Part shown: in pieces, positions 17,360 to 37,183 of the stretch | Layout: the number at the start of each line of letters is the position of its first letter | Numbering within the stretch: the stretch's first letter is position 1 | Notes under the pieces: generated by a model | Database searches by the model: none | The model's input: only the letters and a program-made list of their open reading frames with translations | Told to the model about the DNA's origin: nothing | Position numbers and translations under genes: made by a program | Assembly (NCBI RefSeq): GCF_011682175.1 | Contig: NZ_WHJG01000018.1 | Coordinates: 1-64,000 of the forward strand | Length of the DNA stretch: 64,000 nucleotides | Source: Massilia frigida | GTDB taxonomy: Bacteria > Pseudomonadota > Gammaproteobacteria > Burkholderiales > Burkholderiaceae_D | Direction of reading: 5' to 3'

Positions 17360-17378
17360 TCTTGTCTCCTGAGTTTTT

Positions 17379-18216: not shown

Positions 18217-18217
18217 C

Positions 18218-19666
18218 ATGGCCGCGCTGTACGCCACCGTGCGCGGCAAGATCGGCGCCGCCCCCCTGGGCAGCCTGCGCAACCAGCTGCTGCGCTGGCT
18301 CCTCATTCCCCTGGTGCTGCTGGTCGCCCTGAACGCGGTATCGGTGTACGACAACGCGCTCGACGCGGCCGACATGGCCTACGACCGCTCACTGCTGGCG
18401 TCCACCCGCGCGCTGGCCGAGCGGGTCGCCATCAAGGATGGCAAGGTGGTGGCCGACGTGCCCTACGTCGCCCTCGACAGCTTCGAGACCGATACCCTGG
18501 GCCGCATCTACTACAAAGTGAGCGGCATCGACGGCGAAACCGTATCCGGCTTCGACGACCTGCCGCCGGTGCCGGCCAACGTGCCGCGCTCGGAAGCCTA
18601 TCCGGCGCTGGTGCGCTTCTACCACGCCGACTACAACGGCGAGCCGGTACGCATCGCCGCCCTGCTGCAGCCGGTGTACGACGATTCGATGCGCGGCATC
18701 GCCCTGATCCAGGTCGGCGAAACGCTCGACGCGCGCCGCGGCCTGTCGCGCAAGATCCTGTTCGACACGCTCTTGCGCCAGGCCGTGATGGTGCTGGCGG
18801 TCGCCTCGCTGGTGTGGTTCGCGGTGCGCCTGGTGCTGCGGCCCCTGATGCGCCTGAAAATCGAAGTCGAAAACCGCGCCCTCGACGACCTCTCCGACGT
18901 CGACCAGGCGCTGGTGCACAAGGAAGTTCGCCCGCTGGTGGCCGCCATGAACGGCACCATGTCGCGCATGCACAACCTGATCGCCAGCCAGCGCCGCTTC
19001 ATCGCCGACGCCTCGCACCAGTTGCGCACCCCGCTCACCGTGCTCAAGACCCAGGCCGAGCTGGCGTTGCGCGAAAACGACCCTGCCGCCATGCGCGAGA
19101 TCGTGCGCTCGATCGCCGCCACCACCGACGCCACCGTCCACCTGGCCAATCGCCTGCTCACGCTGGCGCGCGTCGAACATGGCAGCGAGGCGGCCGGCAT
19201 GGCGCCGGTCTCGCTCACCGCCATCGCGCGCCAGGTCGGGCTGGAGATGGCGCTGCCCGCCGTGCACAAGCAGATCGACCTGTCGCTCGACGCCGCCGAC
19301 GCCGACCAGACAATGGTCGACGGCCAGGAACTCATGCTGCATGAACTGGTGACCAACCTGGTCGACAATGCCATCCGCTACACGCCGGCCGGCGGCAAGG
19401 TGGCGCTGCGGGTCAGGGTCGATGGCGCCAAGGTGCTGCTTGACGTCGAGGACAGCGGCTGCGGCATCGCCGACGACGAACGCGAAAAAGTCTTCACCCC
19501 GTTCTACCGCTCGTCGGGCGCGCTCGAAACCAACCCTGGCGGCACGGGCCTGGGCCTGGCCATCGTGCGCGAGGTCGCAGCCCAGCACCGCGCCGGCGTC
19601 ACCCTGGCCAGCGCCGGCTCGGGTACGGGCCTGAAGGTGGTCATTTGCTTCAATTCGGCCGCCTGA
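18218..19666 (+). CDS. tctE: TctE-like sensor histidine kinase
   Basis: 482 residues from ATG 18218, one base after the regulator's stop. An N-terminal membrane helix (LLRWLLIPLVLLVALNAVS) precedes a TctE_N-type periplasmic domain of about 130 residues with ALAERVAIKDGKV. A second helix follows near 190-210. HisKA has RFIADASHQLRTPL (His about 266), and HATPase has the N-box LVTNLVDNAIRY, DSGCGI and GTGLGLAI. In characterised TctDE systems the kinase responds to citrate or other tricarboxylates, sometimes through a binding protein. Here the nearby orphan TctC-like protein is an obvious candidate partner. Confidence 0.92.
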   Translation: MAALYATVRGKIGAAPLGSLRNQLLRWLLIPLVLLVALNAVSVYDNALDAADMAYDRSLLASTRALAERVAIKDGKVVADVPYVALDSFETDTLGRIYYKVSGIDGETVSGFDDLPPVPANVPRSEAYPALVRFYHADYNGEPVRIAALLQPVYDDSMRGIALIQVGETLDARRGLSRKILFDTLLRQAVMVLAVASLVWFAVRLVLRPLMRLKIEVENRALDDLSDVDQALVHKEVRPLVAAMNGTMSRMHNLIASQRRFIADASHQLRTPLTVLKTQAELALRENDPAAMREIVRSIAATTDATVHLANRLLTLARVEHGSEAAGMAPVSLTAIARQVGLEMALPAVHKQIDLSLDAADADQTMVDGQELMLHELVTNLVDNAIRYTPAGGKVALRVRVDGAKVLLDVEDSGCGIADDEREKVFTPFYRSSGALETNPGGTGLGLAIVREVAAQHRAGVTLASAGSGTGLKVVICFNSAA

Positions 19667-23900: not shown

Positions 23901-24299
23901 TACGTCGAGATAATCGGCTTTGCCGTCGCGCGGCGGGTAGGCGCTGAAGTTTTCGCTGCGCGGATTGAAGCGCTGAAGGCCGTTGCGCGTGCCCACCCAC
24001 AGCTGGCCGGAGCGGTCCTCGTGCAGCGCCTGCACCGAATTGTCGGAGATGCTGGCCGGGTCGGTGGGGTCGTGGCGGAAGGTGAGGAAACGGTAGCCGT
24101 CGTAGCGGGTCAGGCCGCCCTGCCCCGCAAACCACATGAAGCCGTCGCGGTCCTGCAACATGGCGGTGACTGTCGATTGCGGCAAGCCGAGGGCGGGATT
24201 GAGCTGCTCGAAGCGCAGCTGGTCCGGTGCCGCCGCCCACGCGACGGGGCACGGAAGGCAAAGCAGGAAGGCTGCCAGCAACAAGCGCAACGAAGACAT
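20979..24299 (-). CDS. Two-component sensor kinase with a 14-repeat periplasmic beta-propeller
   Basis: 1106 residues from ATG 24299; the open frame extends much further upstream but only as antisense to the next gene. A signal peptide (LRLLLAAFLLCLPCPVAWA) is followed by 14 propeller repeats with the D-x-x-G-x-L-W-v-G-T pattern (about 30-680), enough for two seven-blade propellers. Then come a Y_Y_Y Ig-like domain, one membrane helix, a coiled coil, a HisKA-type H-box (SAGIAHEINNPSNF, about 869) and a HATPase (NACHAIED, DSGCGI, GTGLGLSI). Unlike the Bacteroides hybrid systems it has no fused receiver or DNA-binding domain. Such propellers bind oligosaccharides in those systems. It is divergent from a secreted-protein gene. 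Confidence 0.92.
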   Translation of the reverse strand: MSSLRLLLAAFLLCLPCPVAWAAAPDQLRFEQLNPALGLPQSTVTAMLQDRDGFMWFAGQGGLTRYDGYRFLTFRHDPTDPASISDNSVQALHEDRSGQLWVGTRNGLQRFNPRSENFSAYPPRDGKADYLDVRNIASDAKGILWITTRSGLVRLDGASGQFATERHDPANPHSLGADDATGLAFDAAGGLWIGTQQGVDYLAPGTRRFTHYHIDDSAPDALKRNAVRSLAIDRAGTLWVGTALGLEAWRIADGAPAARRRFGSAEGINPGAVTALFQDSHGTLWAGTQTDGLKRWDAGAGRFASFVHQGGNPASLADNYVASLFEDRAGILWAGTWFGGASRIDLNAGGFRHVVSGALSGNKISAIRGDGPRSLWLATYGGGIDRYDLQSGQTTVYRHDARVPHSLNDDLVTALGRDQQGQLWVGTRNGGLSRFDPASGRFTPRPFATGDALSDFIQAIVPDRAGILWIASRGGLHRLDPRTNQATTFRHDAASEASLSDNFIWAILEDTRGRLWVGTSNGLDLFDPASGRFRHARHESANPASLIHDRVSFLHEAANGALWVGTGGGLSRLVADRGGKLQFKSYALQQGLANPAVDGILEDGHGHLWISTDGGIADFDPRKETFRNYTSRDGMAEGDYFVGAAWRQPDGAMFFGSFNSGFTMFDPREVRGNDRAPPVVITDIQIYNQSVRSGPAPSGFVLDAPIQRARQVVLSHTQSVFSFEFAALHFADPQRNQYAYQLEGVDRSWVATDAGKRFATYTNLDPGNYVFRVKASNKDGVWNETGVALAITITPPFWKTWWFRLAAGLFALTCVYAVHRIRVRVLLGQKRELARQVAASLEGLQNAQQRLVLHEKMASLGTLSAGIAHEINNPSNFAHAGAQVLATELERFRAFLVALAGTDADAAVIDSLNGRIDALVRQSATILEGTSRIRDLVRDLGTFARPDEGAMTTAPIGPNLLATVHLVRTLYASVANIGCVLEADPPLACWPAQLNQVFMNLIVNACHAIEDKQRRSGDFTPGMLAISSRADGAWLYVDFEDSGCGIDPAVIDHIYEPFFTTKPTGQGTGLGLSISFGIVERHGGSLTVCSTPGQGSRFTARLPLPA

Positions 24300-24399: not shown

Positions 24400-24434
24400 C
24401 GGTAATCGATGCGTAATGGCGCCTGGACTATCGT
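24400..24434 (+). promoter_or_regulatory. PhoB/OmpR-like direct-repeat box and candidate -10 upstream of a secreted-protein gene
   Basis: CGGTAAT (24400-24406), spacer CGAT, then GCGTAAT (24411-24417) form a 7-4-7 direct repeat. Eleven bases later comes TATCGT (24429-24434), a plausible -10, 30 bp before the ATG. The same box with the same 11-bp gap occurs before two other genes (at 30514-30548 on the minus strand and 34627-34661). The box would overlap the -35 region, as is usual for OmpR-family activators. Confidence 0.7.
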
Positions 24435-24464
24435 GGGCGCCGTCACTTTACAACTGGAGAATCC

Positions 24465-25862
24465 ATGCAATTGACCCACACACTCGCCTGGGGCGGTCTT
24501 TGCAGCATGCTGCTGGCCGCACCCGGCTTCGCGTCCACGGTCACCATCGAGCACAATGGCAGCAACCCTTTTCCTCTCGGCGGCAAGGTCTGGTTCGTCG
24601 GCAAGTTCGATGGCGTCGGCAAGTCGATGGCCTTGTCGGTCAACGGCATCCCCGGCGGTAACGCGACAGTCGGCACCATCAACTCCCAGAACGGCGAATA
24701 CCTCGCCCCACTGGCAACGCCGCCGAACAACGCGGTGAGCGTCACGGCAACCTACCGCAGCGATCCACCGGCATCGGCGAGCACCATGCTGACCTTTCGC
24801 ACCGGTACCACGCCGACGCCGACACCAACCGGCGGCCCATCCATCGCCGGTTGCGACATGTTCCCGGCCAACGCCATCTTCAACACCCGCATCGACGATT
24901 TGGTGCGCTTCCCCGCCCACGCCAGCAGCAACGCCTGGATCCACAGCGTCGGCAACGCGCGTGCGCTGCACATGGACTTTGGCCGCAACGTCAACCAGGC
25001 CGACTATGCGTCCTACTACGGCATTCCGTACAACGTGGTCGACGCCAGCACCACCAGCTGGCCGCGCGTCTCTTTCGCCATCACCGATCCCAATTCCGGC
25101 AACGGTGACGGCGTGCCGGACGAAAGCGACTGCGCCGCGCCCGACGCCGCCCACACGCTCACGCGCGGATGCAGCACGCTGCCAGCCACGAGCCAGCGCT
25201 TCCCCTACCCGAACGATAACGTGCTCAAGGCCGAATACGGCAACTGCAACGATCCGCAGCAGTGCGGCGACCGCCATGTGCTGGCCGTCGAAAAGAACGC
25301 CTGCCGCCTGTGGGAAAGCTACTTCACCTACAAGGTCAACGGCCAGTGGCATGCCTATTCGACCGCCGCGTGGAACCTCAACTCGAACCAGATGCGCCCG
25401 AGAACCTGGACCTCGGCCGACGCCGCCGGCCTGCCGATCCTGCCGCTGCTGATGCGCGCCGATGAAGCTTCCGCCGGCGCCGTGCGCCACGCCTTGCGCA
25501 TCACCTTCGCCGACCGGGTGCTCGACCAGCGCTTCGTGTGGCCGGCCACACACGCTGCGGGTGGCGCGACCGGCAACGGCATCCCGTTCGGCGCCGTGCT
25601 GCGCCTGAAAAGCGACTTCCCGATCCCCGCCAACTGGACCACCCAGGCGCGCGCGCTGGCAACCGCCATGAAGCGCTACGGCGTGTATGTGGCCGATATC
25701 GGCAGCAACAGCTTCCTGACCGGCGAGCCAAGTGCGAGCTGGAATCCGGAGACGATCTCGCAGCTGCAGCGCATTCAAATGGGTTCGTTCGAGTTTGTCG
25801 ATACCCGCACCATCACCGGCAACCCGAAGTTCAACGCCAACTCCTTCCAGGCCAGCTGGTAA
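24465..25862 (+). CDS. Secreted two-domain protein of unknown function; N-terminal module shared with the DUF1800 protein
   Basis: 465 residues with a signal peptide ending near GFAS. Residues about 24-110 form a beta-rich module (GGKVWFVGKFDGVGKSM, SVNGIPGGNATVG, INSQNG). A Thr-Pro linker and a 340-residue C-terminal domain with eight cysteines follow (MFPANAIFNTRIDDL, AYSTAAWNLNSN, YVADIGSNSF). The N-terminal module is strikingly similar to that of the DUF1800 protein encoded at 28594-30441. The C-terminal domain resembles secreted proteins of polysaccharide-degrading bacteria in general look, but I do not recognise the family. It is divergent from the propeller kinase and preceded by the shared direct-repeat box and a GGAG Shine-Dalgarno. 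Confidence 0.85.
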   Translation: MQLTHTLAWGGLCSMLLAAPGFASTVTIEHNGSNPFPLGGKVWFVGKFDGVGKSMALSVNGIPGGNATVGTINSQNGEYLAPLATPPNNAVSVTATYRSDPPASASTMLTFRTGTTPTPTPTGGPSIAGCDMFPANAIFNTRIDDLVRFPAHASSNAWIHSVGNARALHMDFGRNVNQADYASYYGIPYNVVDASTTSWPRVSFAITDPNSGNGDGVPDESDCAAPDAAHTLTRGCSTLPATSQRFPYPNDNVLKAEYGNCNDPQQCGDRHVLAVEKNACRLWESYFTYKVNGQWHAYSTAAWNLNSNQMRPRTWTSADAAGLPILPLLMRADEASAGAVRHALRITFADRVLDQRFVWPATHAAGGATGNGIPFGAVLRLKSDFPIPANWTTQARALATAMKRYGVYVADIGSNSFLTGEPSASWNPETISQLQRIQMGSFEFVDTRTITGNPKFNANSFQASW

Positions 25863-25869
25863 GCATGCC

Positions 25870-25888
25870 GCCCCGGCCACGCCGGGGC
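25870..25888 (+). terminator. Hairpin after the secreted-protein gene
   Basis: Arms GCCCCGGC (25870-25877) and GCCGGGGC (25881-25888) around CAC begin 8 bp after the stop codon. Only a weak T-run follows (TGTTC), so termination efficiency is uncertain. Confidence 0.6.
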
Positions 25889-25908
25889 TGTTCATCGGCG
25901 CGCGGCGC

Positions 25909-26193
25909 TCAGGCGGCGCGCAGTTCCCGTATTCCCTTCCCCAAGCGCCGCCGTAGCAAGGTGCGCAAGGTTACGCCGTCGGCATAGCCGACCATCCCCG
26001 CAATCCGTTCGACACTGGTGCTGCTCGTCTTGAGCAAGTGCAGCGCGCTTTCGACGCGCAAGTCCTGGACATAGGCCACCGGGGTCTTGCCGAGCACCTC
26101 GTGCAGGCGACGCGCCAGCGTACGCTTGCTGGTGGCCAGATCGCCGGCCGCCTGCTCCAGGCTGAAGCGTTTATCGAGATTGGCGCGCGCCCA
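25909..26193 (-). pseudogene. Truncated AraC/GlxA-type regulator (only the DNA-binding domain remains)
   Basis: The frame encodes about 94 residues matching the C-terminal AraC domain of GlxA-type regulators: WARANLDKRFSLEQAA, TSKRTLARRLHEVLGKTP, QDLRVESALHLL, and a second HTH with ERIAGMVGYADGVTLRTLLRR. Immediately upstream is an in-frame TAG (26194-26196), and no DJ-1/PfpI-like sensor domain is found before it. The usual protein is over 300 residues, so the 5' two-thirds is lost. It lies divergent to a monooxygenase-like gene that an intact regulator might once have controlled. Confidence 0.75.
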
Positions 26194-26307
26194 CTATTCA
26201 TGGCAAGATCGATACTATAGATGTCAATGGAGCCAGTATCGTCGTGCAAACCCGGCCTGTAAAGTCGGTTCATCGCACTTCGCGACCAACCTGACCAAAG
26301 GAATTCC

Positions 26308-26622
26308 ATGATGATCAAGCACGCACTGCTGGCCCGCTTCGAAGCACGCCCGGGCAAGGAAGACGACGTCGCCCGGATTCTCGGCGCGGCCCTGGAGATG
26401 GCCAATCAGGAGGCCAGCACGCCGCTCTGGTTTGCCCTGAAATTGTCGGAGCGCGTGTTCGGCGTGTTCGACGCGTTCGAGACCGAAGCTGCGCGCCAGG
26501 CCCACCTGGACGGCCCCATTGCCAAGGCCCTGATGGCGAGCGCCGACGCGCTGTTCGTACGCCAGCCGGAGATCGAGGCGGTCGAGGTGCTCGGCCTCAA
26601 AAACGCGGCGCTGGCAAGTTAG
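26308..26622 (+). CDS. Antibiotic-biosynthesis-monooxygenase-like (ABM) small protein
   Basis: 104 residues forming a compact alpha/beta ferredoxin-like dimeric barrel. ARFEARPGKEDDVARIL at the start and FGVFDAFETEAARQAHLDGP in the middle are typical of putative quinol monooxygenases (YgiN/ABM). The terminal IEAVEVLGLK strand fits the fold. The Shine-Dalgarno AAAGGAA precedes tandem ATGs at 26308 and 26311. Cofactor-free oxidation of quinones is the usual suggestion for such proteins; the substrate is unknown. A truncated AraC-type gene lies on the other side of the promoter region. Confidence 0.8.
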   Translation: MMIKHALLARFEARPGKEDDVARILGAALEMANQEASTPLWFALKLSERVFGVFDAFETEAARQAHLDGPIAKALMASADALFVRQPEIEAVEVLGLKNAALAS

Positions 26623-26630
26623 CCCAAGCA

Positions 26631-26650
26631 GGCCGGCCGCGCGGCCGGCC
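26631..26650. repeat. 20-bp perfect G+C palindrome between two small genes
   Basis: GGCCGGCCGC is directly followed by its reverse complement GCGGCCGGCC. Flanking CAG and CTG extend the dyad with one bulge. It starts 9 bp after the stop of the ABM-like gene and probably acts as a transcription-attenuating hairpin. Confidence 0.6.
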
Positions 26651-26681
26651 CTGGAATACAGACTCACACAAGGAGCATCGC

Positions 26682-27128
26682 ATGTACGAAAAAACGCTGG
26701 TCGCCGGATGGGGCGACATGGACTTCAACGCCCACATGCGCAACACGGCCTACCTGGACAAATCGGCCGATGTGCGCATGATGTGCTTCGCCGACCATGG
26801 TTTTCCCATGGCTGAATTCATGCGCCTGAAAATCGGCCCGGTGGTGATGAAGGACGAAGTCACCTACTTCCGCGAGTTTCACCTGCTCGACGAAGTTGGC
26901 GTGACGATGGCGCTGGCCGGCCTGTCCGAGGATGGCAGCCGCATGATCATCCGCAACGAGTTCTTTCGCAAAGGGACGCTGGCGGCGCGGGTCAACTCCA
27001 CGGTCGGCTGGCTCGACCTCACATCGCGCAAGCTGGTGCGCCCGCCCGAGGCGCTGTTGCAGGTGATGCAGGGCCTGTCCCGCTGCGACGATGTCATCGA
27101 CCTGCCCAACAGCCGTTCGCAGGGCTGA
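26682..27128 (+). CDS. 4HBT-type acyl-CoA thioesterase family protein
   Basis: 148 residues of the hot-dog fold. The N-terminal GWGDMDFNAHMRNTAYLD matches the D-x-(D/N)-x-x-x-H-x-x-N catalytic region of YbgC/FadM-type thioesterases, with Asp as the likely catalytic residue. The VTYFREFHLLDEVGV strand follows, and FFRKGTLAARV fits the later beta strands. It would hydrolyse acyl- or aryl-CoA thioesters; the substrate cannot be read from the sequence. AAGGAG precedes the ATG. It may be co-transcribed with the ABM-like gene across a 59-bp gap holding the palindrome. Confidence 0.85.
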   Translation: MYEKTLVAGWGDMDFNAHMRNTAYLDKSADVRMMCFADHGFPMAEFMRLKIGPVVMKDEVTYFREFHLLDEVGVTMALAGLSEDGSRMIIRNEFFRKGTLAARVNSTVGWLDLTSRKLVRPPEALLQVMQGLSRCDDVIDLPNSRSQG

Positions 27129-27136
27129 GCGGAACG

Positions 27137-27163
27137 AAAAAAACCGCGCGAACATCCGCGCGG
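27137..27163 (-). terminator. Rho-independent terminator of the DUF1800-DUF1501 operon
   Basis: On the minus strand, arms CCGCGCG and CGCGCGG flank a 6-nt loop and are followed by seven T (27143-27137). It lies 22 bp after the DUF1501 stop codon. Confidence 0.85.
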
Positions 27164-27185
27164 CAAAGACAGAGCCAGTCTGTCA

Positions 27186-28565
27186 TCAGCCCATGAACCC
27201 CAGATCGCTGGCCGCGAATTTCGCCAGCTCGTTCTTGAAGACCTGACTGGCGAGCATGTCCGGATCGGCCCCGAACCACCTGCCCAGCGTCGCGCCCACC
27301 TGCTGGTTCGAGAACTGCGGGATCCACACACCCCGTCCGGTCGCGTCATCCGGCCCGCCCAGGGTAAAGTCAGGGAACCGGCCATACACGCCGCCCTTGA
27401 CTGCCGCCCCGATCACCAGATGGTGGTTGCCCCACGCATGATCGGTGCCGCCCGAATTGGCCATCAGCGTGCGGCCGAAGTCCGACATCGTGAACGTCGT
27501 CACGCTGTGCTTGTGGCCGATCTCGGCGAGCGCCTGCTGGAACGCGGCCACCGACTGCGACACCTGGCGCAGCACATCCCACTGCTGGTACGCCTGTCCG
27601 CCGTGCGTATCGAAGCCGCCGATCGACACAAAGAACACTTGCCGCCCCGGCCCTTGCGCGGCGCGCTGGCGAATCAGCTGCGCCACCGTGTGCAGCTGCG
27701 TGGCCAGCGCAAAGCCAGGGAACACCGTGTTCAGCGGGGTGGCCGCATTCGCCTTGGACAGGTCGGCCACCAGGTCCATCCCTTGCAGCAGCGCCTTGTT
27801 GGCGGCATTGGCCATCAGGTTCGGATTCTCGCTGGCCAGGATCTGGCGCAAGGCATCGCGCCGCGTATCGGCCTGGGCCTGCGGCCAGAAGTTCATGCCG
27901 GCCAGGCTCAGTTCACCGGATTCCGGCAGGCGGTTGCCGTGCACGCTGGCGCCTTCCACGAACAGGCCGCCCGCGCCGACCGAGACCGCGTCGAGCCGGC
28001 CCGCGCCGCCCAGCACATCGAGCAGGCGCCCGCCCCAGCCCGTGCCGGCACCGACCGGCGTGCCGGCCTGGTTCTGCAAGGTCTGGTCGGGATGGGAAAA
28101 CAGCTGTGGCGGAATCGCCGTGCCGGCCACGTACTGCGCCTTGGTCAGCGGCTGGCGCACGCTGCCGACGTTGAGCACGGCCGCCACTTCACCCTGGCCG
28201 AACAGCGCGTCGATTTCCGGCATGCCGTAGTGAAAGCCGAACGCTTGCGCCACTGCATCCGGTACGGCCTGCAAGGTGGCCGTGCGCGGCGCCAGCAAGG
28301 TCTTGGCCGAGGTCGACAAGGCCAGCCCGGCCGCGCCGCGCGCAGCGGCATACTTGGCGTAGTGGGCCGCGTCGAGCGGCACGATCATATTGTTGCCGTC
28401 ATTGCCGCCGAACATGTACAGGCATACGAGGGCCTTGTAATCGGTGACGGCAGCCTGTGCCGGGGCCGCCGCGCCCAGCAAGCCCATGGTCGACAGGGTG
28501 CCCAGCAGGCTGGCCTGGGCGCTACCGCGCAGGAATCCCCGGCGCGAGGTCGAAACTGTATCCAT
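27186..28565 (-). CDS. DUF1501 family Tat-exported protein
   Basis: 459 residues. The N-terminus carries a twin-arginine motif (SRRGFLRGSA) and a hydrophobic stretch, so export in folded form is expected. The body is alkaline-phosphatase/sulfatase-superfamily-like as known for DUF1501: LVCLYMFGGNDGNNM near the start, GGFDTHGGQAYQQWDVL in the middle, and SDFGRTLMAN and TDHAWGNHHLVIG later. These supply conserved Asp, His and Gly residues suggestive of metal binding. DUF1501 and DUF1800 genes are commonly adjacent; here the gap is 28 bp, so they form an operon. Catalytic activity has not been established to my knowledge. Confidence 0.92.
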   Translation of the reverse strand: MDTVSTSRRGFLRGSAQASLLGTLSTMGLLGAAAPAQAAVTDYKALVCLYMFGGNDGNNMIVPLDAAHYAKYAAARGAAGLALSTSAKTLLAPRTATLQAVPDAVAQAFGFHYGMPEIDALFGQGEVAAVLNVGSVRQPLTKAQYVAGTAIPPQLFSHPDQTLQNQAGTPVGAGTGWGGRLLDVLGGAGRLDAVSVGAGGLFVEGASVHGNRLPESGELSLAGMNFWPQAQADTRRDALRQILASENPNLMANAANKALLQGMDLVADLSKANAATPLNTVFPGFALATQLHTVAQLIRQRAAQGPGRQVFFVSIGGFDTHGGQAYQQWDVLRQVSQSVAAFQQALAEIGHKHSVTTFTMSDFGRTLMANSGGTDHAWGNHHLVIGAAVKGGVYGRFPDFTLGGPDDATGRGVWIPQFSNQQVGATLGRWFGADPDMLASQVFKNELAKFAASDLGFMG

Positions 28566-28593
28566 CTTGAATCCTTTGTATGTGGAAGGCCGC

Positions 28594-30441
28594 TTACAGG
28601 TGCACGGCGAAATCGGAAACCGCGCTCAAATACAGCGCCGTGATCGCGCGCTGGCGTGGATCGCTGATGGCCTGGATCGTCAGGCCGAGCTGGGTGCGGG
28701 TCGCCGCACGCATGCGGCCGGACAGCAGGTTCGCATCCACCAGATTGATCAGCTTGGCCGGGTCGCCCGCCGCGTTGACGTAGGGGGTGATGTCGATCTT
28801 CACCATGCTGTTCAGGTTGCCGGCGATCAGGTCGTAGGCCAGGTTGGCGCGCAGTACCGCCAGGCTCGGCGCATAGATCTGGAATTCCGGTCCGTACAGG
28901 GTCGGCGAACCCGGCAGGCGCGTCATCGGCGAGTAGAAATTGAACACGCTTGGCGACTTGAGCAGTTCCTGGCTGACGCCGTGGTAACTCCAGAACAGAT
29001 TGGTCGGGTCCAGCACCTGCCCGTTGAGCGCGCGTATCAGGCCGAGCGTGTGCATGATCGGATCCTTGAGCTGGCCGTGGGCGGCGCCGGGCGTGGCCGG
29101 ACGCGCTTCGACGTCGCTCAGCACGGCGCGCAGGGTGGCGGCCAGGTCGCCGCGCCCGGCAGGGCCTTGGGCGAACACATCGGCCACGCGCTTGATGTAG
29201 GCCGGGCTTGGATTGCTCGTCACAAACGCGCGGATCAGGCGCGTGGCGATGAACGGCGGCAGGTTCGGGTGCTGGAACAGGTTCTGCATCACTGCGTCGT
29301 AATCCTGCACCGTGTTTTGCCCGGCCGCCAGTTGGGTACCGTTGAGCAAGGTCTTGGCACCCTTGTCGTGATAGGCGTCGCGCGGCTGCAAGGGGCCGCT
29401 GAAGTTTTCCCAGTTGATGCCAGTGGCGCTGGTGCCGGCGTAGGTCCAGCCGCTCAGCGCGCGTGAGAATTCGCCGATGTCGGCCTGGGTATAGGCCGCG
29501 ATGGTGTCACCGTTACGGTCGAGCTGGGCGCTGCCATCCTGGTTCAGCATGGTGGTGCCGATGGTGAACAGCTGCATCACTTCGCGCGCGTAGTTTTCGT
29601 TGGGCGATGGCATGACGCTGTTGCCCAGGTCGAGATACTTGCCCATGGCCGGGTTCAGCGTCATCTCGCGCAGCAGCTTGTTGAAGTTGCCGAAGGCGTG
29701 CTTCTGCAAGGTCATCAGCCAGGGTAGCATTTCGTTCGGGTAAGGATTCTTGTCGGACGAGACGACAAAGATTTGCGAGAGCGCGAAGATCATGCGCTGG
29801 CGCAGCTGGTCCTTTCCGCTTGCCATGTTGCGGTACCAGTTGGTGGCCAGTTGATTCAGGCTGGTGGCGACCGGCATCGGGCTGGCGGGCGTGGCAAACT
29901 GCTGGGTCAGCCATGCGTTTTGGCCGAGGGTTTGCAGTTGGGCGAGCTCGGCTGCGGTGGCACCGAAGCTGGCCTGTTCCAGGAAGCGTACCGCCGCGAC
30001 TTTGGCCGCATCCGGGACCGGGACCGGCGTTGGCGTCGGGGTTGGGGTTGGCGTCGGCGTCGGGGTTGGCGTCGGGGTTGGCGTTGGCGTCGGCGTTACA
30101 ACTGCGCTACGCAACGTCAGCACGACCGATCCGGACACGGGCGCTGTCCCGTACGTCTTTGCGGAAATAGTCACCGCGTTGTTGGCCGGCATCACCATCG
30201 GTGCCACATATTTGCCGTTCTGCGAATTGACCGTGCCCACTGCGGCGTTACCGCCCGGAACGCCGTTGACGGAAAACTCCATGCTGCGTCCCACGCCGTC
30301 GAGCTTGCCGAGCAGCCATACCGTGCTGCCCAGCGCAAACGGCGCCTTGCCGCTGTATTCGACCGTCACCGTCGCCGCAAACGCCGGCGCGGCCACCATC
30401 AGGCACACGGGCGCCCACATCCACACTCTGCTACCTTGCAT
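28594..30441 (-). CDS. DUF1800 family secreted protein with an added N-terminal beta module
   Basis: 615 residues from ATG 30441, with GGGAGG five bases upstream. The order is: signal peptide (APVCLMVAAPAFA); a beta-rich module (about 22-110: STVWLLGKLDGVGRSM, SVNGVPGGNAAVG, VNSQNGKY); a long Thr-Pro repeat linker; then the DUF1800 domain (about 145-615) with RFLEQASFGATAAEL, PNENYAREVMQLFTIG, YHDKGAKTLLNG and HPNLPPFIATRLIRAFV. The N-terminal module is shared with the secreted protein at 24465-25862. A 7-4-7 direct-repeat box lies about 90 bp upstream. DUF1800 function is unknown, though it travels with DUF1501. Confidence 0.92.
   Translation of the reverse strand: MQGSRVWMWAPVCLMVAAPAFAATVTVEYSGKAPFALGSTVWLLGKLDGVGRSMEFSVNGVPGGNAAVGTVNSQNGKYVAPMVMPANNAVTISAKTYGTAPVSGSVVLTLRSAVVTPTPTPTPTPTPTPTPTPTPTPTPVPVPDAAKVAAVRFLEQASFGATAAELAQLQTLGQNAWLTQQFATPASPMPVATSLNQLATNWYRNMASGKDQLRQRMIFALSQIFVVSSDKNPYPNEMLPWLMTLQKHAFGNFNKLLREMTLNPAMGKYLDLGNSVMPSPNENYAREVMQLFTIGTTMLNQDGSAQLDRNGDTIAAYTQADIGEFSRALSGWTYAGTSATGINWENFSGPLQPRDAYHDKGAKTLLNGTQLAAGQNTVQDYDAVMQNLFQHPNLPPFIATRLIRAFVTSNPSPAYIKRVADVFAQGPAGRGDLAATLRAVLSDVEARPATPGAAHGQLKDPIMHTLGLIRALNGQVLDPTNLFWSYHGVSQELLKSPSVFNFYSPMTRLPGSPTLYGPEFQIYAPSLAVLRANLAYDLIAGNLNSMVKIDITPYVNAAGDPAKLINLVDANLLSGRMRAATRTQLGLTIQAISDPRQRAITALYLSAVSDFAVHL
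30013..30099 (-). repeat. Hexanucleotide-based tandem repeat encoding a Thr-Pro linker
   Basis: Variants of GGCGTC, GGGGTT and GGCGTT alternate for about 85 bp and encode roughly 13 Thr-Pro pairs, then Val-Pro, between the N-terminal module and the DUF1800 domain. Slippage here would change linker length in steps of two residues without shifting the frame. Confidence 0.85.
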
Positions 30442-30513
30442 TTCAACCTCCCTGTTGTCGTTGTCGCATCCGCGCCATTGTCGAAGCGACAAAGACAGGC
30501 CGGAACAGCCAAC

Positions 30514-30548
30514 ATCATCAGGTAGAGCGCATTACAGATGGATTACAG
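30514..30548 (-). promoter_or_regulatory. PhoB/OmpR-like direct-repeat box and candidate -10 upstream of the DUF1800-DUF1501 operon
   Basis: Read on the minus strand: CTGTAAT (30548-30542), CCAT, CTGTAAT (30537-30531), an 11-bp gap, then GATGAT (30519-30514). Architecture and spacing match the boxes at 24400-24434 and 34627-34661. Both half-sites match the E. coli Pho-box half CTGTCAT except at the fifth base. The -10 is weak. Confidence 0.65.
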
Positions 30549-30591
30549 AAGACCAATTTCCTGTATTTTTGACAAGAATCACACAGCAACG

Positions 30592-30710
30592 TTTTTTAAC
30601 CGGGGTCTGACCTCTGATTAGAAACATTTCGAATCAGCACCCACACCAGAGTGCAGAAGCATCGACTGCAGGAAACATTTCTAATCAGAGCTCAGACCCC
30701 GGTTAAGAAA
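30592..30710. repeat. 119-bp inverted-repeat element (MITE/REP-like)
   Basis: Arms of about 39 bp (30592-30630 and the complement of 30672-30710) match with four differences. They share the cores TTAACCGGGGTCTGA and CTCTGATTAGAAA. About 40 bp of unrelated sequence lie between. The GGGGTCTGA motif recalls palindromic intergenic repeats common in betaproteobacteria. The element sits between the box upstream of the DUF1800 gene and the 3' end of the BTAD regulator gene. No transposase lies in the window. Confidence 0.75.
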
Positions 30711-30732
30711 GATCGACGACGCACAGTTATCT

Positions 30733-33700
30733 TTACCGGAGGCCGAGTGCGACGGCCAGCTTTTCGGTCTCGTACGAAGGCGATACGCCAAGCACGATCG
30801 AGAGGGTGTCGCGGCAGCGCCGGTAGGCGCCGAAGGCGGCCGCCGCGCCATCCTGCGCATGGGCGCAGCGCATCCAGCCGCGGTAGTTCGCTTCCGACAG
30901 CGGCTCGGCCGCCAGCGCGCGCTGGTACAGGCTCAGCGCGCAGCCCCATTCCTGCATCGCTTCGAGCAGCCGCCCGAGCTGGCCGACCGCGGCGAGGAAC
31001 AGGTTACGCGCGCGCTCGCGCACCGGCAGTATCCATGTGTCTTCGGCGCCGTCGCAAAACGGGCCGCGATACAGATCGAGCAGCGCCGCGCTGCAGCGCC
31101 CGACTTCCTCCACCGCGGCCTGCGCCGGCAGGCCGGCAATGGCCACGCACAGGTCGGCCAGCGCGCTCACGTCGGTCCAGACGCGCGCTTCGGCCAGGTG
31201 CGTCCTGCCGCCGGAAACGACCACCGCCTCGTCGCTCAGCAGCAGCTTGCGCAGGCGGTGCACCGTCACGTTCAACGCCGACTTGGCGACGTCGGTGCTG
31301 CCCCACAGCTGCGCGACCAGCGCCGCCTGGGCCTTGCCGCCCTCGCCCGCCGCCGCCAGGCTTCTGAGCAAAGCCAGTGGCCGCTGCTGCGCCTTGCCGG
31401 TGGCGACCACCGCCGCCCCGTGCAAGGTCAGTTCGAATTTGCCGAGCGTGCGTACCGCGACCGGCCATGGCCAGCCCTGCACGCAGCGGTTCGGCGCGGC
31501 CAGCCGCTGGCGCATGACGATGGCGCCGACATGGGCCGCGTCGATGCCGTTTTCCAGCGCCAGCGCCGCCACCCGCGCGGCCAGCACCGGCACCGCCGCA
31601 AACAGGGCGTTGGCCTGGCGCCGCCGGTGGCTCGCCATCGCCGCGTCCATCAGCGCAGCCGCGCGCGCGCCATCGCCACCCGCCGCGCTGGTGCAGGCGT
31701 CGATGAAGTCGCGTTCTTCGCCCAGCAGCACCGCTTGCACGCCGTACGCGCCAGCCACCGCCCGGCCATAGCACTCCAGCGCTTGCGGGTACGCACCGGC
31801 CCACGCATGGCAGGCACCGAGGAAGGCGTCGAAGCGGGCCCGCTCGCGCGCCGGCACGCCGGCGTCGAGCGCCAGGCGCAGCGTCTCCTGTGCGGCGTGC
31901 AGCGCGCCGGCCAGGTCGCCCGCCAGTGCCAGGCACTGCGCGTCGAGGGCATTGAGGTCGATCATTTGCAAGGTGCGCGACGCCGGCAGCGCCGCGCGCA
32001 TCTGGTCGAGCAGGCCGCGCGCCGCATCCACCGCGCCGGTACCGAGCAGGTGATGCACTTCGAGCGACTGGAACAGCAAAGGATCGAGGCCGGCGTCGAT
32101 GACGATGCTGCGGGCCACGCCCGTCAGGCGCTGCGCCTGCCCCAAGTCGCCCTCCTTGTTGTACCAGCGCGCCACGCGGCTGTACCAGCGCACGCGGTGC
32201 GCTGCGCCGACGGCGGCATCGTCGGCGCACGCGCCAAGCTGCGCCACCAGCACGTTGGCGCGGCCGGCGTTGTCCATCCAGTCGAAGTAGCGCAGCAGGC
32301 AGGCGCCCGCCTCCAGCCGCGCGAGCGGATCGTCGACCTGGTCGAGCGCCAGCCGCGCGCGCTGCACGCAGGCGGCCAGCAAGGGCGATTGCGGCGCCAC
32401 GTACAGCAGCGCGCTGGCCATGCGCGAATGCAGCCGCAGATCGAGCGCGGGATCGAGCGCCGCCAGGTCGAGCGTGCGCACGCCATCGGCCAGCACCGCC
32501 AGCCAGCGCGGCAAGGCGCTGAAATCGGCCCATTCGGCGTCGTAGGTGTCGATGATGGCGGTCACCGCATGCAGGCGCGCCGCCAGGTCGCCGGCCTGGT
32601 CGAAAGCGCGTTCGGCGCGCACCAGGATGCGGCGCGCGTGCAGCGGCTGCGCATCGGCCAGCGACACGCCGTGCCAGTAAGCGAGCCAGGGCTGCGCATC
32701 GGCCATGTCCGCCGGCAGGCAGCTCATCCAGAGGCGCCACGTCTGGCCACGGCCGCTGGCGAGCATGCCAGCGGCGCGGCGCAGCAGGAAGCCGGCCAGT
32801 CCCTGATGCGCCTGCGCCTCGATATACAGGCCTGCCGCTTCGTCGGTGCGGCCGTGCGCGTCGGCGATGGCGGCGGCCTGCGCGGCCAGCGCCAGGCGCT
32901 GCGCGGGATCGAGCAGTTCGCGCGCCTGCTGGCGCAAAAATGCGCCGAACAAGCCGTGGAACGCGTAGCTGTCGCCGCGCCGTTCGACGAACAGGCGGCG
33001 CCGGTACAGGCGTTCAAGCAGCAGCGGCGCGCCGGGGTCGCCCGTGAGCGCCTGCGCGTCCGCACCGGACATGGCCGGCCAACAGGCCAGCATCAGCAAC
33101 AGGTGCCGGGATTGGGCGGGCAGGCGTCCGACGATCTCGCCGGCGAAATAGCGGAACAGCGCTTCGCGCCCCTCCGCCAGGCCGGTGCGCGGCTGGCCAC
33201 GGACGCTGCGCAGCAGCGCCACGCCCGCCGCCCAGCCATCGACCTGGTCGAGCCATTCGGTCACCTCGGGATCGGCCGGGTCGCCGGCCTGCGCCAGCGC
33301 ACGCACTTCGGACGGGTCGAGGCGCAGCGCGTCCCAACCGAGCGTGCCCAGTCGCCCGTCCAGCTCCATGCGCGCGAGGCACGGCGGCAGCGCTTCGCGG
33401 CTCACGGCCACCAGCGTCACCCCGGCCGGCACTTCCGCGCATGCCGCTTCGAGCAGGTTGCCGGCGCTATCCCAGTCGACGTCGTGCGCGTTATCAAACA
33501 CCACCAGGGCGCCTTGCGGCAGGTGGGCATACAACTGGCGGAAGAACAGGCGCGCGTGTTGGGCCGCGTCGCCGGCCACCTGCGGCGCGTGCCAGGGCAA
33601 GGCGCCGTCGAGGGTGCGCAGCGCCTCGGCAAGGAAGAACGACAGCGTGGCCGGATCGGCATCGCCCTGATCGAGCTGGCACCACAGTACAGGCGCCCCG

Positions 33701-33915
33701 CACTGATGCGCATAGCTGGCGGCCAGCGTGGTCTTGCCGGCGCCGGGAGGAGAAGAGATCCACAGCACCGCATGGCGGCCGCGCAAGCGGTCGATCAGCG
33801 CGAACAGGCGCGTACGCTGGAGCGGCTCGAACAGGCGGGGAAGCGTCAGCTTGGCGTAGGCCTGGACAGCGTGCGGCCGTGGGGGAGTGCGTGTTCTGAT
33901 TGCGCGTGTAGCCAT
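30733..33915 (-). CDS. Large STAND-ATPase transcriptional regulator with C-terminal BTAD domain
   Basis: 1060 residues from ATG 33915 (GAGAG upstream). A MalT-like P-loop ATPase domain starts near residue 50: Walker A SSPPGAGKT at 55-63, then Walker B VVFDNAHD. A long helical TPR-like region follows (about 350-800). Near 800-870 begins a winged-helix segment (VRTLGKFELTLHG, LNVTVHRLRKLL), and the last 200 residues form a bacterial transcriptional activator domain (RGPFCDGAEDTWILP, LYQRALAAEPLSEANYRGWMR). This is the SARP/AfsR-like order reversed: ATPase first, DNA-binding last. STAND proteins switch on ligand binding. Neighbours suggest control of the nearby secreted-protein genes, but this is inference. 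Confidence 0.88.
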   Translation of the reverse strand: MATRAIRTRTPPRPHAVQAYAKLTLPRLFEPLQRTRLFALIDRLRGRHAVLWISSPPGAGKTTLAASYAHQCGAPVLWCQLDQGDADPATLSFFLAEALRTLDGALPWHAPQVAGDAAQHARLFFRQLYAHLPQGALVVFDNAHDVDWDSAGNLLEAACAEVPAGVTLVAVSREALPPCLARMELDGRLGTLGWDALRLDPSEVRALAQAGDPADPEVTEWLDQVDGWAAGVALLRSVRGQPRTGLAEGREALFRYFAGEIVGRLPAQSRHLLLMLACWPAMSGADAQALTGDPGAPLLLERLYRRRLFVERRGDSYAFHGLFGAFLRQQARELLDPAQRLALAAQAAAIADAHGRTDEAAGLYIEAQAHQGLAGFLLRRAAGMLASGRGQTWRLWMSCLPADMADAQPWLAYWHGVSLADAQPLHARRILVRAERAFDQAGDLAARLHAVTAIIDTYDAEWADFSALPRWLAVLADGVRTLDLAALDPALDLRLHSRMASALLYVAPQSPLLAACVQRARLALDQVDDPLARLEAGACLLRYFDWMDNAGRANVLVAQLGACADDAAVGAAHRVRWYSRVARWYNKEGDLGQAQRLTGVARSIVIDAGLDPLLFQSLEVHHLLGTGAVDAARGLLDQMRAALPASRTLQMIDLNALDAQCLALAGDLAGALHAAQETLRLALDAGVPARERARFDAFLGACHAWAGAYPQALECYGRAVAGAYGVQAVLLGEERDFIDACTSAAGGDGARAAALMDAAMASHRRRQANALFAAVPVLAARVAALALENGIDAAHVGAIVMRQRLAAPNRCVQGWPWPVAVRTLGKFELTLHGAAVVATGKAQQRPLALLRSLAAAGEGGKAQAALVAQLWGSTDVAKSALNVTVHRLRKLLLSDEAVVVSGGRTHLAEARVWTDVSALADLCVAIAGLPAQAAVEEVGRCSAALLDLYRGPFCDGAEDTWILPVRERARNLFLAAVGQLGRLLEAMQEWGCALSLYQRALAAEPLSEANYRGWMRCAHAQDGAAAAFGAYRRCRDTLSIVLGVSPSYETEKLAVALGLR

Positions 33916-34030
33916 GGTCTCTCTGTCGTTCAGGGCCCGAAGGCGTATACAATACACGAGCTCACAGCGCCATCGCCGTAGTTTTCCTTACCGCCCGGGG
34001 GCCGGAGCGGATCTCCATTCTCTCAAAACC

Positions 34031-34621
34031 ATGGCAATTTTCAAAACAGAAAACCTGGCCCTGCTCGATCGGCAGCACGCTTTGTCGGACCCGCGCCACA
34101 CCGTCATGCTGGTCGATGACATGGACGCCAACGTGTCGGTCATGGCGGCAATCCTGCGCCCGCACTTTCATTTGGTCGAAGCACGCGACGGCCAGGAAGC
34201 CCTGCGTCTGATCGGCGCGCTGCCGCCGTCGCAGGAACTGGCGTGCATCGTCAGCGATCACCGCATGCCGCGCATGAGCGGCGTGCAGCTGTTCGAGCGC
34301 ACCTCGGTCATGCTGCCCGATACCCTGCGCATCCTGGTGACGGCTTACCTCGACCTCGATGCTATCGTCGATGCGGTCAATGCCGGCCAAATTTATCGCT
34401 TCATCGCCAAGCCATTCGACGCCAGCGGATTCCTGCTGGCGGTGCGGTGCGCGGTGGCCACTTTCGAGCATCGCCGCCTGCTGGACGCGTATCACCGCAC
34501 GCTGCAAGACGCGTCGCCGGTCCTTCCGGCAGCGGCGACGGCACTGCGCGAGCAGGCCCTGGCGGCGCGCGCAAGCCTGGCCGCGCTGGAAGCGCAGGCG
34601 CGGGCCACGCTGCCCACATGA
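34031..34621 (+). CDS. Stand-alone response regulator receiver protein
   Basis: 196 residues. The receiver domain covers about 25-145: TVMLVDDMDANV supplies the acidic pair, the phospho-Asp is in CIVSDHRMPRMSG (about residue 77), and Thr and Lys are in ILVTAYLD and RFIAKPFD. The pattern is like RpfG-type receivers, but no HD-GYP or DNA-binding output follows, only a roughly 50-residue Ala-rich helical tail. The ATG at 34031 is chosen because residues before it look non-coding; the Shine-Dalgarno is weak. It lies 115 bp from the divergent BTAD regulator and 63 bp before the GH9 gene. It could relay phosphate from the orphan propeller kinase. Confidence 0.85.
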   Translation: MAIFKTENLALLDRQHALSDPRHTVMLVDDMDANVSVMAAILRPHFHLVEARDGQEALRLIGALPPSQELACIVSDHRMPRMSGVQLFERTSVMLPDTLRILVTAYLDLDAIVDAVNAGQIYRFIAKPFDASGFLLAVRCAVATFEHRRLLDAYHRTLQDASPVLPAAATALREQALAARASLAALEAQARATLPT

Positions 34622-34626
34622 CATAT

Positions 34627-34661
34627 CGGTAATCGATCGGTAATTCCCAGCGGCCTAGAAT
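34627..34661 (+). promoter_or_regulatory. PhoB/OmpR-like direct-repeat box and -10 upstream of the GH9 gene
   Basis: CGGTAAT (34627-34633), CGAT, CGGTAAT (34638-34644) form an exact 7-4-7 direct repeat. Eleven bases later is TAGAAT (34656-34661), a good -10, 24 bp before the ATG. The segment from TAT at 34624 through the first half-site and spacer is identical to that before the secreted-protein gene at 24465. Confidence 0.72.
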
Positions 34662-34684: not shown

Positions 34685-37183
34685 ATGAATACCATTACTT
34701 TGCAAATCGCGGCCGGCATTGGCGCGTCTGTCCTGGGGGCGTCCATCGCGCAGGCAGCTGACGCCATCGTCGGCGTGCACGCGGCAGCGCCGCAGGTGAT
34801 CGTGGTCGAACTGCAAACCGCCACCACCAACGAAGCCGGCGGCACGGCCACCAGGCCCGATGTACTCGACCTGGCCCTGTCCAAATGGACGGTCAACGGC
34901 CAGGCGGCGCTGGGGATCAGCCGCATGTCGACACCGTACGACGAGCAAAAGGCGCTGGCCACCACGAGTCCCAACCTGTTCCCGGTGACGGTGCGCCACA
35001 AGATCTATCTGCGGCTCGACAAACCGCTGGCCCAGGGCCAGCCGTACACCATCGCCACGCCGTACGGCGCGACGCGGCTGGCTTTCGACAGCCGCGTCAC
35101 CTACTGCGAATCGATCAAGGTCAACCAGACCGGGTACAGCAAGCTGGCCAGCTCGCGCTTCGCCAATTTTGGTACGTACCTGGGCGACGCCGGCTCGCTC
35201 AAGCTGCCCGCCGGGTCGCGCTACGAGGTGATCGATGAACCAAGCGGCAGGACGGTGCCGGGCGGCGAACCGCAATACATCAAGGACGATACCGCAATCG
35301 CCAGCGCCAGCTCCGGCGAGCATGTCTACCGACTGCGGCTCGACCAGTTGGCCGAGGGCGGCCCTTACTTCGTGTCGGTGCCCGGTTGCGGGCGTTCGCG
35401 CTCGTTCGCGGTCGGCGACGACGCCAGCCGCAAGATCGCCTATGTTTCGGCGCGCGGCCTGTATCACCAGCGTTGCGGCACGGCGCTCAAGCAGCCGTAC
35501 ACGCGCTACACGCGCGAAATGTGCCACGCCACCGTGGCCGATACACGCACGCCGTGGGTGTCGACGCCGGTGCTTTCGGTGCCGGACAACGCGCTCATGA
35601 AGCCGCTGATCGGCGGCCATCACGACGCCGGCGATTTTGACCGCCGCCCGATGCACACCATCATTCCGATCCTGATGCTGTCGTATTTCGACGCCTTCCC
35701 CACCCACTTCGTCGACCGCCAATACAACATTCCGGAGTCCGGTAACGGCATTCCCGATTTCGTCGATGAAGCCCTGTGGGCGGTGCTGTCGTGGGAAAAC
35801 CTGCAGGTGATGGACACCCACGATGCGCAGTTCGGCGGCGTTCGCGCCGGCACCGAAATGAACCGTCATCCGGCCTACGGCGTGCACAGCGCGGCCAGCG
35901 ATCCCGGGCGCTACGGCACCTGGGCGGTCAGCGAGGAAGTCACGGCGCTGTCGGCCGGGATCTTCGCCCACGCCGCCCGCGTGGTCCGCCCGCACGATGC
36001 CGCACGCGCCGACGCCCTCGTGCAACGCGCCCGGCTCGCCTGGAGATATCTGGAAAAGACCGCGGCACCGGGAGCTGCCAAGGCACGCTTCATGTATCCC
36101 GCGCTGCAGCTGTACCTGGCCACCGGCGAGGCACGCTATCACACCCTATTCAAGAACGCTGCGCAGGCCATCGTCGTCAGGGATGGCACCTGGCCCGAGC
36201 AGTATTTGCCCGGCAATGCCAGCGCCGCGGTGCAGAGCGCGCATTTCGTCAGCTACCTGACGGCGCATGGCCGCGCGCTCGATCCGGCATTGACGCAGGC
36301 GCTCAAGGACCGCATCGTCTACTTCGCAGATCGCGGCGGCTACGTCGGACCGGCACCGGAAAGCCAGGCCTACCCGCAGGGCGCCACCAAGTTCCTGTCA
36401 TGGGGTGCCACCACGACGCAGGGAAAATATGCCGACGTGTACGCGTTCGCGTCCCTGTTTGCGGCGAATGACGCCAGGAAGCAGGCCTACATCAATGCGG
36501 TCAGCCAGTATGCCGACTTCTCGCTGGGGCTCAATCCCTTGGGACGCTCGTTCGTGACCGGGCTGGGAACGGACACGCCGCAAAGTCCGGCGCATCTCGA
36601 TTCGTACTTCACCAAGTACGGACTGGCTGATGGCGCCGGCGCCGATCCGCACCTCAAGGCGATCGGCAACGTGCCGGGGATCGTGGTGTACGGGCCGGCC
36701 GAGGGACGCAGCGGCGCGGCGTATCAGACGGCGGTAAGCAACAAGCTGTATCCGTCGTGGGACCGGTTGCCAGTCCTGCGGCGCTGGGGCGACGGCTGGT
36801 CACTCATTAACAGCAATGAGTTCAGTACCTGGGAGACCATGGTGTGGAATGCGGCGATGCACGGCTTCCTGTACAACGCCAGCCAGGACCCGAAGGCGAC
36901 CAGCACGCCGGCCGAATGCGATGGCGCGACGTGTGCGCAGACAAAACCGAACGCCTGCGTGATCGAACCGGCAACGGGCGCGCTGGCGTTGAGCGCACTG
37001 GCGAACAATATCGTGTGCGTGCAGCGTACCGATAACTGGGCGCAGCAGCATGTGGTCAACGGGAAGGCGAGGTTTGCCACGCCACGGGCTGCGCCGGGCA
37101 CGCGCGTGTATGGGTTCAGCGGTATGAACAGCTATGGAGCGTGCACCACCAAAGTGGCGCAGCTGACTTGCGAGATGCCGTAA
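34685..37183 (+). CDS. Secreted glycoside hydrolase family 9 protein
   Basis: 832 residues with a signal peptide (AAGIGASVLGASIAQA). An N-terminal Ig-like region (about 25-250) ends in the CelD_N-type strand ESIKVNQTGYSKLA. The (alpha/alpha)6 catalytic domain follows, with GGHHDAGDFDRRP near residue 315 providing the catalytic aspartates. WAVSEEVTALSAGIFAHAARV, DFSLGLNPLGRSF and NEFSTWETMVWNAAMHGFL carry the expected C-terminal glutamate. GH9 enzymes cleave beta-1,4 or related glucans, but the substrate here is unknown. A C-terminal tail of about 90 residues with six or more cysteines is unusual. GAGGAG lies before the ATG, and the shared direct-repeat box lies upstream. Confidence 0.88.
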   Translation: MNTITLQIAAGIGASVLGASIAQAADAIVGVHAAAPQVIVVELQTATTNEAGGTATRPDVLDLALSKWTVNGQAALGISRMSTPYDEQKALATTSPNLFPVTVRHKIYLRLDKPLAQGQPYTIATPYGATRLAFDSRVTYCESIKVNQTGYSKLASSRFANFGTYLGDAGSLKLPAGSRYEVIDEPSGRTVPGGEPQYIKDDTAIASASSGEHVYRLRLDQLAEGGPYFVSVPGCGRSRSFAVGDDASRKIAYVSARGLYHQRCGTALKQPYTRYTREMCHATVADTRTPWVSTPVLSVPDNALMKPLIGGHHDAGDFDRRPMHTIIPILMLSYFDAFPTHFVDRQYNIPESGNGIPDFVDEALWAVLSWENLQVMDTHDAQFGGVRAGTEMNRHPAYGVHSAASDPGRYGTWAVSEEVTALSAGIFAHAARVVRPHDAARADALVQRARLAWRYLEKTAAPGAAKARFMYPALQLYLATGEARYHTLFKNAAQAIVVRDGTWPEQYLPGNASAAVQSAHFVSYLTAHGRALDPALTQALKDRIVYFADRGGYVGPAPESQAYPQGATKFLSWGATTTQGKYADVYAFASLFAANDARKQAYINAVSQYADFSLGLNPLGRSFVTGLGTDTPQSPAHLDSYFTKYGLADGAGADPHLKAIGNVPGIVVYGPAEGRSGAAYQTAVSNKLYPSWDRLPVLRRWGDGWSLINSNEFSTWETMVWNAAMHGFLYNASQDPKATSTPAECDGATCAQTKPNACVIEPATGALALSALANNIVCVQRTDNWAQQHVVNGKARFATPRAAPGTRVYGFSGMNSYGACTTKVAQLTCEMP

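Follow-up and report, generated by a model that had tools for sequence, protein, structure and literature searches.

A candidate SARP-domain regulator and its putative direct-repeat operators at an exported-protein locus of Massilia frigida

The closest described counterparts of the system considered here are the SARPs of Streptomyces (AfsR, ActII-ORF4, DnrI and PimR), which combine a winged helix with a BTAD domain and are associated with heptameric direct repeats of 11-bp period near the -35 position. The AfsR box consists of two 11-bp repeats, from -40 to -19, on which a side-by-side dimer also engages sigma region 4 (PMC10936776, text available in part). We found comparable features in a 64,000-nucleotide stretch of Massilia frigida DNA (RefSeq assembly GCF_011682175.1, contig NZ_WHJG01000018.1, positions 1 to 64,000; hereafter "the window", to which unprefixed coordinates refer): three 18-bp direct-repeat boxes and, inside the same cluster, a gene at 30733-33915 on the minus strand for a candidate regulator. 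The PimR heptamer CGGCAAG, with its 4-bp spacers, resembles the CyGTAAk of these boxes (PMC5930380, in the portion accessible). Unlike in the Streptomyces SARPs, the SARP domain of the regulator is C-terminal and follows an NTPase/TPR body, and the host is Gram-negative; its proposed targets are exported proteins rather than an antibiotic cluster.

From the sequence, the predicted domain fold, co-occurrence and conserved geometry, we infer that the three boxes are operators at which this regulator would bind and activate, rather than repress, three units with exported products. We put the probability of this at about 0.83. Such a regulon would connect the DUF1800-DUF1501 pair with a GH9 enzyme and with an N-terminal domain that three kinds of exported protein carry, and it would give the proteobacterial BTAD protein group a candidate regulator with a testable operator. 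The half-site code could then be used to predict the targets of orthologues genome by genome. Among the literature matches listed, with most subscription journals outside the scope of the search, we found no operator for a Gram-negative SARP or a MalT-BTAD hybrid; the mention of BTAD in a paper on extracellular contractile injection systems (PMC8213781) concerns other loci, as far as its available part goes.

Three direct-repeat boxes and their promoters

Box 1 (CGGTAAT-CGAT-GCGTAAT, 24400-24417, plus strand) is the proposed operator of a two-domain exported protein, box 2 (CTGTAAT-CCAT-CTGTAAT, 30548-30531, minus strand) that of the DUF1800-DUF1501 operon, and box 3 (CGGTAAT-CGAT-CGGTAAT, 34627-34644, plus strand) that of the GH9 gene. 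Eleven base pairs past each box lies a -10-like hexamer, TATCGT (24429-24434, plus), GATGAT (30514-30519, minus) and TAGAAT (34656-34661, plus), respectively. An earlier sequence-only reading of this DNA had described the boxes, their 7-4-7 layout, the exact 11-bp gap and the hexamers, and had assigned them to the same three transcription units. All of this was borne out except the 13 kb that it gave for the cluster, as the first to the last box cover 10.2 kb. Its views that the layout is of the OmpR/PhoB type and that the boxes mark one small local regulon are likewise supported.

Each box occupies the position of a would-be -35. The hexamers 17 bp from the -10 agree with TTGACA at only two to three of six positions, and the promoters therefore look activator-dependent. 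One could argue that the regulator binds the boxes as a repressor or at an anti-activator site, since occupancy of the -35 region might also block polymerase. However, promoters with such a poor -35 would seem to need an activator, and the SARPs described in the available parts of PMC10936776 and PMC10972967 activate. We regard a repressor or anti-activator site as highly unlikely and favor activation by the regulator.

Within the window, CKGTAATCNATNNGTAAT matched exactly the three boxes, even when two mismatches were allowed, and it had no match in 100 dinucleotide shuffles of the window. A scan of the whole genome for the motif had been suggested by the sequence-only reading; GTAATCNATNNGTAAT has three matches in 7,792,306 bases, all at this locus, and its reversed-pattern control has one. 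With one mismatch, GTAATNNATNNGTAAT gave ten matches genome-wide, three at the locus and seven elsewhere, as compared to six for the control, so the off-locus matches are at chance level. Scored together with the -10, these seven reached at most 16.0; the three boxes, which contributed to the scoring matrix, reached 33.8-36.6. By matrix scoring of the upstream regions in the window, no box precedes the regulator, receiver (REC) or kinase genes. Autoregulation was accordingly rejected for the window's clade, the regulator gene having no box upstream in the window.

A MalT-like protein with a C-terminal SARP domain

The regulator of the boxes was unknown to the sequence-only reading, which did not mention the SARP-domain protein that is now the candidate. 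Its frame runs from 30733 to 33957 on the minus strand. We took the ATG at 33915 as the start in preference to a GTG at 33957; the latter falls inside GTGTATTGTATAC, a stretch that is also conserved upstream of the regulator gene in a related genome, G094. Profile comparison matched the protein to MalT (8bob, 3.3e-49), AfsR (8hvr, 8.5e-7) and EmbR (2fez, 3.5e-4), with the MalT-like part, matched over about 400 residues, at profile positions 9-403 and the SARP part at 831-1044. The MalT-like NTPase and TPR region come before the SARP domain, which makes up the last 262 residues (30736-31521, minus strand), and its recognition helix is proposed to lie in ALNVTVHRLRKLL. Pfam identifies the BTAD domain (PF03704, 2.6e-17). 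The winged helix is not matched by Pfam PF00486; it is indicated by the AfsR and EmbR profiles, the nearest solved folds, and by a structure model in which the C terminus folds as a SARP domain. EmbR shares the winged helix and BTAD fold and differs in carrying a C-terminal FHA domain (PMC10936776, in the part available), where the regulator has an N-terminal NTPase/TPR body.

Judged by sequence alone, the locus also has the 11-bp-period direct repeats near -35, close to the -10, that go with SARPs. Classical SARPs place the SARP domain at the N terminus and any extra domains after it; in the regulator this order is reversed, and for this reason we file it as a SARP-domain hybrid rather than a classical large SARP. 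The comparison with MalT and the other LAL/STAND activators is similar. The MalT-like STAND NTPase is present, with an NCBIfam MalT score of 103 bits, under the cut-off of 537. However, the SARP domain stands in place of the C-terminal LuxR-type helix-turn-helix, for which Pfam gave no GerE match (E<=0.001). Together, a SARP domain that is not N-terminal and a MalT-like body that lacks the LuxR-type helix-turn-helix suggest a MalT-SARP hybrid accompanied by its candidate operator.

ATP and a ligand turn on MalT-like bodies. In the regulator, the N-terminal NTPase and TPR body would likewise act as the switch and would become competent through ATP plus a small ligand or a partner protein; a sugar released by the GH9 enzyme might be that ligand, which is only a guess. 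Each half-site would then hold one copy of the C-terminal SARP domain, and the two copies would be neighbors on the same face of the helix. If the -10 is placed at -12 to -7, the repeats would span -41 to -20, and the SARP domains would overlap the region in which a -35 is lacking. Like AfsR, they would bring RNA polymerase to the -10, 11 bp further downstream. The regulon would comprise the two-domain protein, the DUF1800-DUF1501 pair and the GH9 enzyme. Pfam detects no receiver domain on the regulator itself; a REC-only protein and a propeller kinase adjoin it, so that a putative phosphorylation input is possible.

Distribution of regulator, boxes and targets among relatives

We searched 245 genomes of the family, 17 of them from the genus, for the regulator (E<=1e-30). 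It was present in 21 of the 245 and in four of the 17, namely the window's own genome, G192, G148 and G094. The strict form of the box occurs in 19 family genomes and, within the genus, in the window's own genome, G192 and G148; it is absent from all 13 genus genomes that do not have the regulator. The reversed-pattern control gave seven matches across all 245 genomes. Three strict sites are found in the window's own genome and three in G192, all at the locus. G148 has two at the locus and one elsewhere, and its third locus site, before the GH9 gene, ends in GTAAC. Box 1 is conserved in loci L061 and L062 and diverged in L064. In all four regulator-bearing genus genomes a box precedes the three targets, whether strict, one mismatch off, diverged or severed from GH9 by a transposon. 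The last case is that of G192, where a 1667-bp insertion (L061:13216-14882) with a 478-codon DDE-transposase frame (PF13701, 2.8e-143) and a CTAG duplication interrupts the GH9 promoter within the -10 and separates the -10 from the box. GH9 may thus be uncoupled there.

Within the genus, only the same four genomes have GH9 matches (E<=1e-30) and the two-domain protein at full length. DUF1800 homologues occur in 14 of the 17, and those at least 69% identical are confined to the four and G125. The two-domain and DUF1800 proteins have a common N-terminal domain (about 55% identical). The sole strict off-locus box of G148 lies 147 bp before the gene for a 630-residue exported protein (L147:3998-6051) whose first domain is 57-66% identical to these N-terminal domains and is accompanied by a TP-rich linker; its C-terminal part has no Pfam match. 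DUF1800-DUF1501 operons that encode the shared N-terminal domain occur in six family genomes (DUF1800 59-68% identical). In the stretches read, one of them a contig of only 3.9 kb, these operons have no regulator match, and they have no box, their upstream 320 bp scoring at most 4.4.

These distributions bear on an alternative raised by the likeness to the Pho box that the sequence-only reading pointed out, namely that the boxes are Pho boxes at which PhoB would activate the three units under phosphate limitation. The consensus of the Pho box half-site is CTGTCAT, whereas the half-site here is CyGTAAT, and the regulator has no receiver domain match. The 7-4-7 layout ahead of the -10 is the same in both, and AfsR and PhoP sites overlap at the Streptomyces afsS promoter (PMC10972967, text available in part). 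However, matches to a PhoB model (E<=1e-80) occur in 15 of the 17 genus genomes, including 11 of the 13 without regulator or strict box, and the window's own genome has no further strict boxes. This test is imperfect in that just two of the 17 genomes pass the curated cut-off of the model, so that the matched proteins count as candidate PhoB proteins. As the boxes do not follow the distribution of PhoB, the Pho alternative is not supported, and we consider it very improbable.

The distribution of the regulator is complemented by the divergent module of G094, whose regulator is 55% identical to that of the window. G094 retains the order of the genes (kinase, two-domain protein, DUF1501, DUF1800, regulator, REC, GH9), with GH9 on the opposite strand. 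Before the three targets are diverged boxes, CCGTATG-TCAG-ATGTAAT, TTGTAAG-GCAT-CCGTAAC and CTGAAAT-CAAT-CTGTAAC, that retain the 4-bp spacer and the 11-bp gap. They were first spotted by eye in the upstream regions and then scored. A matrix built from the window's sites alone selects the same three (11.4, 19.1 and 23.6) and scores at most 0.5 before the REC, kinase and DUF1501 genes of G094. Reciprocally, the three targets of the window score 22.2, 28.1 and 20.8 with a matrix from the G094 sites, and five other genes score no more than 4.8 in their upstream regions.

For a held-out test we applied a 6-site matrix, made from the window and G094 sites only, to 26 further regulator loci (16 family genomes, 10 named relatives). 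The search for named relatives gave 16 loci, several of them fragments. Left out were L104, where the match reaches the contig end, L114-L116 (short contigs), L118 (a weak match in Streptomyces), L113 (same genome as L075) and the regulator matches of G037, G050 and G074. The 26 loci are not fully independent, given kinship among some of them (L073 and L078 are from one genome) and the origin of L063 from the same genome as a training locus. Matrices of 12 and 18 sites served for description only, because they include sites picked for similarity; the 6-site matrix carries the test.

With the box and -10 combined, the top match lay outside the regulator gene and no more than 600 bp from it in 12 of the 26 loci, as compared to a random expectation of 1.65 (P 1.7e-8) and to two of 20 control loci with a top match at the equivalent place. 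Because promoter regions are AT-rich, we also permuted the matrix columns; 300 permutations gave a mean of 2.67 and a maximum of eight, and none reached 12. When gaps of 6-17 bp were compared, 11 bp was best, with 12 matches (5 to 10 for the others) and a mean score of 15.3 (next 13.6). Among spacers of 1-8 bp, compared with the spacer columns excluded, 4 bp was best, with seven matches (next five) and a mean of 13.6 (next 13.0). A looser pattern had four of its seven matches in G100, G031 and G219 inside the 20-kb stretch around the regulator.

Several findings weigh against the assignment of the boxes to this regulator. Fourteen of the 26 loci have no top match beside the regulator (L063, L065, L067, L069, L073, L074, L076, L078, L103, L106, L107, L108, L109 and L117), and these include the locus of a 54%-identical paralogue, L063. 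The 18-bp box alone succeeds in only seven of the 26 (P 9e-4). Just three of the 12 fitting loci (L066, L071 and L070) outscore all 20 control loci, which reach at most 20.0; the other nine score from 7.3 (L079) to 19.3 and rest on position, so that some may be chance. The looser pattern shows no overall enrichment in 18 whole genomes (59 matches against 157 for the reversed control), and in 11 more distant genomes none of its 34 matches lies inside the regulator stretch. Sixteen family genomes in which no regulator was detected have one strict match each (loci L039-L052, L055 and L056), as compared to seven control matches in the whole set of 245. G125 carries its 69% DUF1800 orthologue at a contig edge with no regulator detected, and G067, one of the six genomes with box-less DUF1800 operons, has a 42%-identical regulator at another locus. 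Finally, in L071 the box (L071:6209, minus strand) adjoins a tandem pair of regulators and precedes the gene for an OmpR-type DNA-binding protein (L071:5153-6031, minus strand; PF00486, 1e-7), so another binder is possible there.

The L071 arrangement is in line with the idea that the OmpR-family response regulator of the window (17521-18216, plus strand), or another OmpR-type regulator of the genome, binds the boxes. There are 24 Trans_reg_C matches in the genome, and the one in the window is about 6 kb from box 1. However, the neighbors of this gene encode a TctE-type kinase, a TctC-type receptor and a porin and so point to a different function. The gene is also unmatched (E<=1e-8) in L165 and L064, two adjoining stretches of G094 that retain the diverged boxes. 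On these grounds we hold the nearby TctD-like regulator to be an unlikely binder. The neighbor and distribution evidence concerns one of the 24 matches, and we judge the OmpR alternative as a whole to be quite improbable.

The SARP-domain regulator remains our preferred binder of the boxes. More tentatively, MalT-type activators with a C-terminal SARP domain may be a little-described Gram-negative family that reads CyGTAAk-CnAT-CyGTAAk-N11-TAnnnT across Beta- and Gammaproteobacteria, and in this branch the propeller histidine kinase may also be wired in through the output-less receiver, feeding a two-component signal into a SARP. We consider this generalization doubtful.

Neighboring genes and other loci

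The propeller kinase (20979-24299, minus strand) is a sensor histidine kinase with two-component-regulator propeller, Y_Y_Y and HATPase domains (Pfam) and is divergent from the gene for the two-domain protein (24465-25862, plus strand). The latter consists of an N-terminal domain, a TP-rich linker and a C-terminal domain; it has no Pfam match at E<=0.001, and its AlphaFold2 model (mean pLDDT 44.1) was not usable. Its export, like that of proteins downstream of boxes elsewhere, was judged by eye from the N terminus. The exported DUF1800 protein (28594-30441, minus strand; PF08811, 2.7e-88) is the product of the first gene of its operon and the DUF1501 protein (27186-28565, minus strand; PF07394, 4.3e-36) that of the second. 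According to the accessible part of PMC5122149, the DUF1800-DUF1501 pair was co-transferred with a bacterial chitin synthase. The exported GH9 glycoside hydrolase (34685-37183, plus strand) has GH9 (PF00759, 7.5e-25) and CelD_N (PF02927, 1.9e-6) domains.

The REC-only response-regulator receiver protein (34031-34621, plus strand; PF00072, 1.5e-14), in which Pfam detects no output domain, is encoded next to the regulator. It and the propeller kinase adjoin the regulator in the window, L061, L062, L063, L064 and L067; L065 has REC matches and no kinase. Between the divergent regulator and REC genes, GTGTATTGTATAC (33945-33957) is conserved in the window, L061, L062 and L064. It is probably the shared promoter core of the two genes, and no box lies there.

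The genes downstream of boxes in other loci are varied. They encode a di-haem cytochrome c peroxidase in L065, a protein with a twin-arginine-like start in L066, a lipoprotein-like protein in L112 and, in L074, a vanadium chloroperoxidase/PAP2-like protein and a protein with a Tle1-like phospholipase domain. The box before this last gene (L074:13205, minus strand) is a weaker one, and the protein (L074:11300-13087) has the catalytic domain. The gene that follows the box is that of the regulator itself in L072 and L075 and that of the second BTAD regulator of a tandem in L110, which suggests autoregulation in these loci. In two betaproteobacterial metagenome-assembled genomes (L109 and L117), box-like sites at L109:7153 and L117:7109, both on the plus strand, precede two similar-looking small exported-looking proteins about 0.9 kb from the regulator gene.

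Elsewhere in the window, positions 15283-19666 hold a TctD/TctE-like two-component pair with an adjoining TctC-type receptor and porin; the pair was found in neither of the G094 stretches L165 and L064. Between the end of the regulator gene and box 2 (30600-30700) there is an inverted repeat built on GGTCAGACCCCGGTT and GAAATGTTTC, which varies among relatives and which we take to resemble a REP-type element.

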